Source: Spirulina subsalsa FACHB-351 (lineage in GTDB: Bacteria; Cyanobacteriota; Cyanobacteriia; Cyanobacteriales; Spirulinaceae). From it: a DNA stretch of 49,166 nucleotides. A program made the translations under genes and the position numbers. Positions 12,778 to 41,193 of the stretch are shown here, piece after piece. Numbering within the stretch: position 1 is the first letter of the stretch; each line of letters starts with the position of its first letter. A model generated the notes under the pieces. It ran no database searches. It saw only the letters and a program-made list of their open reading frames with translations, and was not told where the DNA came from. The stretch lies in the NCBI RefSeq assembly GCF_026130165.1, contig NZ_JAIHOM010000022.1, forward strand, positions 4,050-53,215. The letters are read 5' to 3'.

Positions 12778-12870
12778 AGTCAGAAGTCCAATAAATTTTA
12801 GGTCAAAAATGTTGGGCGAAAATAATCGGGAATTTGCCGCCCCAAATCTGGAGTAAACCTATTCTATACT

Positions 12871-12906
12871 ATAGCGTTTCCATTTGAGTTTTGTAATCCA
12901 CAAGGG
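12871..12906 (+). repeat. Solo end of a MITE-like element
   Basis: These 36 bases match the reverse complement of 40431-40466 at 33 of 36 positions by eye (ATAGCGTT.CCATTTGAG core). The first 15 bases with flank (ACTATAGCGTTTCCA, 12868-12882) also equal 40321-40335 exactly. I see no matching second terminus nearby, so this is probably a partial copy. Confidence 0.7.
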
Positions 12907-13042
12907 AATAGGGAATAGGGAATGGGGAATAGGTAATTGATAATTGTTCCCCCTCTCCCCTGCTCCCCTGCTCCCCTGCTCCCCTGCTCCCCTGCCCCCC
13001 TGCTCCCCTGCTCCCCCTCTCCCCGACTCCCGACTCCCGAAG
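12907..13042. repeat. Intergenic spacer of GGGAATA and 8-bp CTCCCCTG tandem repeats
   Basis: After a run of GGGAATAGGGAATGGGG and one TAATTGATAATT unit there are about nine tandem copies of the octamer CTCCCCTG with slight variation. An antisense open frame through it (Gly/Ala/Glu-rich) is low-complexity and not a gene. The 12778-13081 interval otherwise holds only the solo MITE-like end. Confidence 0.85.
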
Positions 13043-13081
13043 TTATTCAGCAAGCCCTAATTAACCCCCACTGAGCAAATC

Positions 13082-38457: not shown

Positions 38458-39717
38458 ATGAATGCCCCTACTGTTCCCTTGTCTCCTTTCAGACGACCTA
38501 TTGCGGTGGATTTATTTGCCGGAGTGGGGGGATTTTCTTTAGGTATGGAACAAGCGGGGTTTGATGTAGTGGTTGCCGTGGAAAAAGACCCCATTCACGC
38601 CGCCGCTTATACCTATAATTTCCCCCAGACACGGGTTTTATGTGCTGATATCACCACCATTTCCGGGGCAGATATTGTCCATTTAGTGCAGCAACAAGTC
38701 CCCCAGTTCCAACAAATTGATCTCATCTTTGGGGGGCCACCTTGTCAAGGATTTTCCATCATCGGCCCCCGCAATCCCAAGGATAAGCGCAACCAGTTGA
38801 TCTTTGAATTTTGTCGCTTGGTGAGGGAGTTGCAACCGCGTTATTTTGTGTTGGAAAATGTCCCCGGACTGAAACAACCCAAAAACCAGTCCCTGTTACG
38901 ACGGTTAAAACGGGAGTTGAGAGGGGCTGGGTATCAAATTACCGAACGGGTTAGAATCCTCAATGCGGTGGATTTTGGGGTTCCTCAAACTCGGAAACGG
39001 TTGTTTTTGTTGGGCCGTCGAGAGGGGGCGGTTAAATTTTGTTATCCTCCTCCTCAAAAGAATCCCCCTACGGTGCGCGATGCGTTGCAGGATTTACCCA
39101 ATTTAGACGATTTTCCCCATCTCAACCAGAGTGATGAGTTGTGGCTCTCTCAGGAGGAATTAAGGGCGTTAGATGAGACGATAAGCCCCTATGGGGAACG
39201 ATTACGGGGTAAGGGGGATGGGGGAAACTTGGCCTATCCCCGTCGCTGGAATCCCCATTGCTTAACGGGGTTTCGTCGCACTCAACACGAGGCTAGCACG
39301 ATTGAACGCTTCCGCCAAACTCCTGCGGGGCAACGGGAGGAGATTAGTCGTTTGCGCAAGTTGGGCTGGGATGAATACTGTTGTACGCTGCGGGCGGGGA
39401 CTCCTTCGGAACGGGGGAGACATACCTCAGCCCGTCCTTTACATCCGGAGTATGAACGGGTGATTTCGGTGCGGGAAGCAGCGCGTTTACATTCGTTTCC
39501 CGATTGGTTTGGGTTTCATGTGACGAAGTGGCACGGATTCCGACAGGTGGGGAATTCTGTGCCTCCGTTGTTAGGTCGTGCCATTGGACAACAGGCGATC
39601 GCTGCGCTGCAAGTTACGCCCTTTTCCCCTAGTATAGTTCTGGAATTAGGCGATCGCGCATTACTCCAATTCACCCCCAGTCAAGCAGAACAATACTTTA
39701 TCCACCAACACATCTAA
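38458..39717 (+). CDS. DNA (cytosine-5-)-methyltransferase, orphan
   Basis: The 419-residue enzyme has the m5C motifs in order: I AVDLFAGVGGFSLGMEQAGF (~16-35), IV GGPPCQGFS with catalytic Cys96, VI YFVLENVPG, VIII QTRKRLFLLGRR, a target-recognition region (~185-345) and X FRQVGNSVPPLLGRAIG (~375-391). No restriction endonuclease gene is next to it, so it is an orphan. The target-region tail HTSARPLHPEYER and SVREAARLHSFPDWF recalls the cyanobacterial orphan enzymes that methylate CGATCG, the core of the abundant HIP1 octamer. That specificity is inference. The ATG at 38458 has no clear ribosome site. A SAM methyltransferase follows after 15 bp. Confidence 0.93.
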   Translation: MNAPTVPLSPFRRPIAVDLFAGVGGFSLGMEQAGFDVVVAVEKDPIHAAAYTYNFPQTRVLCADITTISGADIVHLVQQQVPQFQQIDLIFGGPPCQGFSIIGPRNPKDKRNQLIFEFCRLVRELQPRYFVLENVPGLKQPKNQSLLRRLKRELRGAGYQITERVRILNAVDFGVPQTRKRLFLLGRREGAVKFCYPPPQKNPPTVRDALQDLPNLDDFPHLNQSDELWLSQEELRALDETISPYGERLRGKGDGGNLAYPRRWNPHCLTGFRRTQHEASTIERFRQTPAGQREEISRLRKLGWDEYCCTLRAGTPSERGRHTSARPLHPEYERVISVREAARLHSFPDWFGFHVTKWHGFRQVGNSVPPLLGRAIGQQAIAALQVTPFSPSIVLELGDRALLQFTPSQAEQYFIHQHI

Positions 39718-39732
39718 ACCTCCCTCTTGCCC

Positions 39733-40344
39733 ATGACAGAACCTCTTCTCGAACCCCTTTTAAGGCAATTTCGCGCTCAACGAGTCCTTCGACATATTCC
39801 TCCCCACTCCACCCTATTAGACATTGGTTGTGGAGTCTCTGGACGTTTTTTACAGTCCATTTCTCATCACATTAAACAAGGGGTTGGAGTGGATTTTAAA
39901 GTTGAACCCCGCAAAACAGGTAATATTGAAACCCTACAACTTAAACTAGATCATCAACTCCCCTTTCCTGACCAAAGCTTTGAAATTGTCACCATGTTAG
40001 CCGTTCTAGAACACATCGAACATGAACAGGCTATTCTGCAAGAAATTTATCGCGTTCTCATCCCTAACGGAAAACTAATACTTACTGTTCCCTCCCTCTG
40101 GTCCCAGCCCATTTTAGAATTTTTAGCCTATCGCTTAAAATTAGTCAGTGAAGCCGAAATTCGTGATCACAAAAGATACTATAATCGACAAAAACTAAAA
40201 CAATCTCTAGTTATTCAAGCTGGATTTCAAGACTTTTATCACCAATACTTTCAACTAGGGATGAATAACTTTTGCACTGTGGTCAAAAAAAGATCCCCTC
40301 CCCCTAAAGCACCACCCCTTACTATAGCGTTTCCAAATCATTGA
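39733..40344 (+). CDS. Class I SAM-dependent methyltransferase; 3' end formed by a MITE-like element
   Basis: The 203-residue protein has SAM motif I LLDIGCGVSGRF (~32-43), an acidic GVGVDFK strand, LPFPDQSFEIVTMLAVLEH (~79-97) and LIPNGKLILTVP (~117-128), the pattern of UbiE/class 11 methyltransferases. The substrate is unknown; the neighbouring glycosyltransferase suggests glycan or lipid modification. The last seven codons (TIAFPNH) and the stop fall inside the repeat element starting at ~40324, so the native C-terminus has probably been replaced. A TTG lies two codons before the ATG. It follows the DNA methyltransferase by 15 bp. Confidence 0.85.
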   Translation: MTEPLLEPLLRQFRAQRVLRHIPPHSTLLDIGCGVSGRFLQSISHHIKQGVGVDFKVEPRKTGNIETLQLKLDHQLPFPDQSFEIVTMLAVLEHIEHEQAILQEIYRVLIPNGKLILTVPSLWSQPILEFLAYRLKLVSEAEIRDHKRYYNRQKLKQSLVIQAGFQDFYHQYFQLGMNNFCTVVKKRSPPPKAPPLTIAFPNH

Positions 40345-40466
40345 TGAACTCTCAGAGAAGTTTCTCATAATACTTCAAGCTCCTTGTAACCCTTGTATAC
40401 TCTTCCCAGATCCGGTGTTCCCTTTGCTTTCCCTTGTAGATTACACAACTCAAATGGGAACGCTAT
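40324..40466. mobile_element. MITE-like element with ~12-bp terminal inverted repeats
   Basis: The left end ATAGCGTTTCCA (40324-40335) and right end TGGGAACGCTAT (40455-40466) are inverted repeats, 11 of 12 identical. They enclose ~119 bp with no coding potential. The right-hand 36 bp recur in inverted orientation at 12871-12906 with 33 of 36 matches. The outermost flanks read ACTATAGCG and CGCTATATA, suggesting a TA-type target. There is no transposase, so it would be a non-autonomous miniature element. Confidence 0.72.
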
Positions 40467-40506
40467 ATAACTTTTGCTATCCTTTACCCTATCACGACTC
40501 TGCCCC

Positions 40507-41193
40507 ATGAAATTATCCGTTATCATCCCTTGTTATAACGAAGTTGGCACAATTTCTCAAGTCATCGAAGCCGTCAAAAAATCCCCCGTTGATTGTGAAA
40601 TTATCATTGTCGATGATTGTTCAACTGATGGCACGAGACAAGTTTTAGAATCTCAAATCGAATCCATCGTTGATCAAGTCATTTATCACCCCAGAAACCG
40701 AGGCAAAGGGGCAGCATTACGCACAGGATTTGCAGCCGCAACAGGGGAAATTGTCATTGTTCAAGATGCCGATTTAGAATATGATCCCCAAGAATATCCC
40801 TTAATGATAGAACCCATTCTTAAAGGCAAAGCAGATGTGGTTTTTGGCTCTCGTTTTCAAGGGGGAAGACCTCATCGAGTTGTTTATTTTTGGCACATGG
40901 TAGGGAATAAATTTTTAACCCTTTTGTCTAATATGTTGACCAATATAAACCTAACGGACATGGAGACTTGTTATAAAGCATTTCGACGGGAAATTATTCA
41001 GTCTCTGAGAATCCAAGAAAATCGCTTTGGCTTTGAACCAGAAATTACCGCCAAAGTAGCTAAACTCAATTGTATAATCTACGAAGTCGGTATTTCCTAT
41101 TATGGGCGTACCTATAAAGAGGGTAAAAAAATTGGCTGGAAAGATGGCTTTTGGGCAATTTTTTGTATATTTAAGTATAATCTTTTACCCTAA
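40507..41193 (+). CDS. Family 2 glycosyltransferase (DPM/DPG-like)
   Basis: The 228-residue protein starts MKLSVIIPCYNEVGTI, then has EIIIVDDCSTDGT (~32-44) and the metal-binding DADLEYDPQEYP (~92-103), the GT-A plan of dolichol-phosphate mannose or polyprenyl-phosphate glucose synthases. FGSRFQGG and RFGFEPEITAKVAK are also typical. It should transfer a sugar from a nucleotide donor to a lipid carrier at the membrane face. It has no C-terminal membrane helices. I chose the ATG at 40507; a TTG upstream lies just past the repeat element. The convergent multispan gene overlaps its end by four bases. Confidence 0.93.
   Translation: MKLSVIIPCYNEVGTISQVIEAVKKSPVDCEIIIVDDCSTDGTRQVLESQIESIVDQVIYHPRNRGKGAALRTGFAAATGEIVIVQDADLEYDPQEYPLMIEPILKGKADVVFGSRFQGGRPHRVVYFWHMVGNKFLTLLSNMLTNINLTDMETCYKAFRREIIQSLRIQENRFGFEPEITAKVAKLNCIIYEVGISYYGRTYKEGKKIGWKDGFWAIFCIFKYNLLP

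Follow-up and report, generated by a model that had tools for sequence, protein, structure and literature searches.

The window analysed here is a stretch of 49,166 nucleotides from Spirulina subsalsa FACHB-351 (contig NZ_JAIHOM010000022.1), in which a gene encoding a SAM methyltransferase is followed by its partner gene, encoding a family-2 glycosyltransferase (Table 1). The methyltransferase frame opens with ATG at 39733, closes with TGA at 40342-40344 and yields a protein ending in KKRSPPPKAPPLTIAFPNH. A short element with inverted ends overlaps the 3′ end of this frame and sits between both genes, separating them as the initial annotation had noted. The extent of ~143 bp proposed there was corrected to 141 bp with one TA on each side, on the basis of matches in the own genome, an alignment of 30 copies, the inverted arms and a check of the coordinates. 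The arms (40323-40352 and 40438-40467) are 30 nt long and 70% complementary, and the RNA fold of the element contains 13 terminal pairs, in agreement with the inverted ends originally reported. In most copies the first 13 bases of the two ends, designated A and B, are alike and thus constitute terminal inverted repeats.

Table 1: Features of the window discussed in the text, with positions on the window and supporting evidence.
Feature	Position	Strand	Evidence
SAM methyltransferase gene, 203 aa	39733..40344	+	Pfam Methyltransf_11, E 6e-17; relatives; junction
Left TA target copy	40323..40324	.	Sequence; outer TA in other copies; target preference
MITE copy, 141 bp	40325..40465	+	A end (TAGCGTTTCCAAATCATTGAT...) left, B end (inverted TAGCGTTCCCATTTGAGTTGTG...) right
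Right TA target copy	40466..40467	.	As left TA; single TA at two G001 empty sites of other copies
Family-2 glycosyltransferase gene, methyltransferase partner	40507..41193	+	Pfam Glycos_transf_2, E 1.2e-36; spacer lengths
Mosaic element	12870..13059	+	Same B end (12870 on, 33/36) fused with a second repeat family's terminus (TATTCAGCAAGCCCTA, 13044-13059)

Copies of the element and their distribution

A DNA search of the own genome (5.26 Mb, 279 contigs) yielded 45 rows at E <= 1, four of them weak, and at least 41 matches at E <= 1e-28 including the copy in Table 1; this count is a lower bound, since 40 of 89 first-look candidates were scored. Using the 19-nt B end with up to three mismatches, 70 matches were obtained in the own genome compared to a single match for the reversed control pattern. 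The element is thus clearly a dispersed MITE as initially suggested, and further copies, which had been looked for as a critical check, are present. The best 30 of the at least 41 copies were aligned and tested for open reading frames. They are 126-170 bp long, with the variation located mostly in an internal GGGAACA-like run, have sharp ends, lie at unrelated loci and are too short to hold a transposase gene. Several ORF calls start inside copies (L011, L019, L022, L023, L024, and L029); these represent neighbouring frames extended upstream and were not counted as gene starts, and the possibility that the element encodes a peptide or a promoter was dropped.

None of the 58 relatives searched (59 genomes including the own genome) yielded a full copy, three of them (G001, G003, and G053) giving pieces of 24-68 nt only. 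Within the order, the 20-nt B end with at most one mismatch was detected in 20 out of 388 genomes, the own genome included, with the control pattern matching in one. One full copy is present in G299, which belongs to another family of the same order. The exact 23-nt A end gave no match in a genome-contig collection in which the own or near genomes may be missing. One copy of the own genome (L008) and the G299 copy (L111) have flanks that are 88-93% identical, and the MITE occupies the same position in both, suggesting that this segment may have been transferred between families together with its MITE.

Target site

An outer TA was observed on both sides in 28 of the 30 copies. The target context [AC]TA[GT] was found in 21 of 30, compared to a background of 21% of the TAs in the window and 22% of those in the copy flanks, an excess with a binomial p of about 1e-8. 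IS630 reportedly prefers CTAG targets, to judge from the title of a paper. Nine copies were queried against G001, a genome of the same genus (L006, L021, L023, L026, L008 in part, L009, L010, L015, and L030). At two of them, L023 and L010, G001 possesses the empty site with a single TA and no gap at the junction; at L010 the alignment is interrupted by a gap of 3 nt some 5 nt away from the TA. L023 lies at a gene for a nickel-insertion (LarC-type) protein, and in the own genome its right TA is now GA. The other seven were diverged or unmatched at the site: for L006, L021, L026, L009, and L015, G001 matched on one or both sides and never across the site, L008 gave a partial one-sided match and L030 no row. 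G001 carries the methyltransferase-glycosyltransferase pair without the element, so that the same-genus orthologue does not share the element DNA; an orthologue sharing it would have spoken against the initial annotation. Since the G001 sequence is diverged at the methyltransferase site, the TA duplication is not directly readable there.

The C-terminus of the methyltransferase

The methyltransferase is conserved up to residue 186 (KK), where conservation stops. Residues 187-197 form a non-conserved tail, and the last six residues (IAFPNH) are element-derived together with the TGA: the junction codons are ATA GCG TTT CCA AAT CAT TGA, the A of ATA being contributed by the TA target copy as its second base. 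The initial annotation was therefore right in assigning the last codons and the stop to the element. Its further proposal that the native C-terminus had been replaced was not confirmed. The position of the C-terminus was compared in 17 cyanobacterial or same-order relatives (a paralogue at C99, G036, L135-L148, and L161, with G036 and L161 read from residue 3). Sixteen of these comprise 184-188 residues, one (L148) comprises 169 and was read from query residue 18, and all 17 end within a few residues of 186; none continues past residue ~196, the point that the initial annotation had proposed to check. The G001 orthologue ends at residue 197 with a proline-rich, likewise non-conserved tail of its own (HPIPSPIPPPL).

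The insertion point lies within one residue of the stop of the G001 orthologue, indicating that a short non-conserved tail predated the insertion. Counted by hand, AAAAAA is separated by 34 nt from the TAA next to the insertion, compared to 33 nt from the stop in G001; the old stop may thus have come out of frame through a difference of one base in the C-rich tail. Judged from this comparison, the insertion altered only the last residues of the methyltransferase and the spacer to the glycosyltransferase gene. A second methyltransferase-glycosyltransferase pair is present in the own genome (L066, C99), its protein being 73% identical to the first and the pair being without element or tail.

Copies at gene ends

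As a raw count, five of the 30 full copies end a recognisable gene by the element's own stop codon. Besides the methyltransferase (copy 40325-40465), the genes concerned encode an alpha/beta hydrolase (L006), RuvC (L021), the nickel-insertion protein (L023), and a CobW protein (L026). In these four the stop is TAG, the first three bases of the element, and no residue is added. At L023 the TAG stands exactly where the relative has TAA, so the length of the protein is kept; at L026 and L021, the last residues of the relative differ. Over all phases, the copy in the window offers stops at base 1, 18, or 44 of the A end and at base 1, 14, or 99 of the B end. As TAG follows the duplicated TA, a copy that enters a TA in one of the reading phases immediately re-creates a stop without lengthening the protein. 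It is conceivable, if rather doubtful, that the family is preadapted to gene ends in this way and that stop-supplying ends are selected in IS630-type elements because they render insertion at a stop codon harmless.

A candidate transposase

The initial annotation had pointed to a transposase gene with matching termini as a further check, and none was found intact in the draft of the own genome (279 contigs). A related transposase frame of 314 aa on C15 aligns with a gap at query residues 234-280 and differs in its ends; on C26, a C-terminal transposase fragment adjoins a B-like end. The best candidate for a partner is found in another genome of the order, G267, which encodes an IS630-type transposase (Pfam DDE_3, E 3.5e-15, and helix-turn-helix domains) starting about 80 nt inside a B-like end (22/24) and running to the contig end. 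On another G267 contig, C-terminal transposase codons are followed by an end that agrees with the A end in 17 of 23 positions, including 15 of the first 16. Since they lie on different contigs, we can only infer that the two pieces represent one element. A search with the G267 transposase in 12 genomes did not detect a complete IS630 element bounded by its two ends on a single contig. These IS630-like ends outside the MITE make an IS630-type parent probable.

Discussion

The locus is very probably explained by a non-autonomous MITE of the IS630/Tc1-mariner type that inserted by cut-and-paste at the 3′ end of the methyltransferase gene with a presumably close to neutral effect. The MITE would have entered a TA ahead of the glycosyltransferase partner gene, presumably moved by an IS630-type transposase, and the target TA would have been duplicated. 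Translation now enters the left end and, 20 nt beyond the T/A boundary of the first TA, stops at TGA, adding IAFPNH to the protein. As about 11 residues lie between the end of the conserved methyltransferase fold and the added ones, such an insertion would have been nearly neutral and could have survived.

An origin as a chance inverted sequence or as a decayed full IS, rather than as a transposed unit, might be considered in view of the decayed IS630 transposase fragment beside a B-like end on C26. It is practically refuted by copy number and alignment, as the own genome holds dozens of uniform, sharp-ended copies (126-170 bp in 30 of them) at unrelated loci, with no room for a transposase. 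The open frame through the junction of an otherwise intact gene might in turn argue for an adaptive insertion, in which having the IAFPNH tail, or no longer having the earlier one, affects the methyltransferase in its activity, stability, or binding of partners. We consider this very unlikely: the conserved protein stops at residue 186, G000 and G001 have different tails and other cyanobacteria have none, the left end yields the same six residues wherever a frame enters in that phase, and the four other genes ended by copies gained zero residues.

More weight, while still improbable, can be given to a regulatory part (an RNA hairpin, terminator, or promoter) that lowers or uncouples glycosyltransferase expression. 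The spacer between the methyltransferase stop and the glycosyltransferase ATG has grown to 162 nt from the 49 nt seen in G001, in a gene pair that is closely packed in relatives: the glycosyltransferase motif, which was not found by pattern in five of 15 named cyanobacterial loci (L135, L140, L141, L147, and L148), lies 6-23 nt from the stop in 11 of the 12 other loci with the motif and 67 nt from it in the remaining one. In addition, the sense strand of the element folds slightly better than shuffled sequences (z -1.9; 8 of 200 as good). The opposite strand, however, folds in an ordinary manner (z -0.67), a promoter and terminator scan of 40250-40560 revealed no such pattern, and an Rfam search over 39700-40700 gave no match.

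The insertion of a MITE at a gene end represents a known kind of event with an ordinary consequence, caused by a new MITE family. We did not find this family described among the open-access papers listed, and when its end sequences were searched for as text strings in this literature, the matches listed looked unrelated by title. ISY100 of Synechocystis PCC 6803 is reported to insert almost only at TA, which is duplicated; its short terminal inverted repeats (24 bp) reportedly suffice for mini-elements to transpose, those with 30 bp of each end being mobile (PMC2170065). It resembles the MITE in its duplicated TA target, short terminal inverted repeats and cyanobacterial host, whereas it encodes its transposase and the 141-bp MITE encodes none; the two were compared by description (PMC2170065).

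The pattern at gene ends has a counterpart in an unrelated host, again compared by description. The multicopy QMITE1 and QMITE2 of Coxiella burnetii share 1-50 bp with functional genes, at the 3′ side of these; all affected functional annotated genes are stated to carry the insertion at the 3′ end, one of them (EnhC) with a C-terminal extension, and C-termini are suggested to tolerate change (PMC5896051). Within the cyanobacteria, 147 complete or partial MITE copies of 77-541 bp are described in Anabaena sp. 90 as mostly intergenic with some inside ORFs (PMC3542288). They too are compared here by description; they are classed there as type II MITEs, without similarity to the inverted repeats of the IS elements of that genome (PMC3542288). 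Rickettsia palindromic elements, as a review summarizes them, are repeats of about 150 bp that insert into reading frames and change the encoded proteins; they contain an open frame themselves and lie in phase within genes, whereas the MITE described here ends the frame (PMC10969869).

The analysis corrects a tempting reading, as a gene end seemingly rewritten by an element turns out to belong to a conserved enzyme whose tail is trivial. A further result is a MITE family of cyanobacteria, probably of IS630-type parentage; the TAG at the ends of its copies allows them to insert at gene ends without doing much harm. Since gene callers will put element-made tails into protein databases, some caution is advisable in annotation.

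Mosaic element and other repeat families

The initial annotation had also reported that the right-hand 36 bp of the element recur in the window with 33 of 36 matches. This match is real, but lies at 12870-12905; the interval 12871-12906 given originally yields 13 of 36. The 12870 segment has one end in common with the 40325-40465 element, the other end belonging to a second repeat family. As a mosaic it supports dispersal of the end and does not represent a second copy of the MITE. Six such mosaics were observed among the loci examined (L032, which is the one in the window, L041, L045, L053, L059, and L087), and the joints between the MITE B end and the second family end (TATTCAGCARGCCCTA) lie in short G/C-rich repeat runs.

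The end of the second family is very abundant, with 249 matches in the own genome at up to one mismatch. Its inverted pairs (L190-L219, 30 loci) span 68-184 bp, as seen in 11 pair rows with two sites counted twice, and the family looks like another TA-target MITE family. A 34-nt insert (CCTAATTCAGGTCTGCTGAATCATAGCAGAAAGC) that resembles its end is located at the end of the glycosyltransferase gene of G001 (L061). A third repeat of about 97 bp (TAGCTAGTCCTAATGAGACG...), which accounts for 22 of 27 match rows in G001 and occurs at many sites there, borders three of the 30 MITE copies (flanks of L011, L014, and L021).
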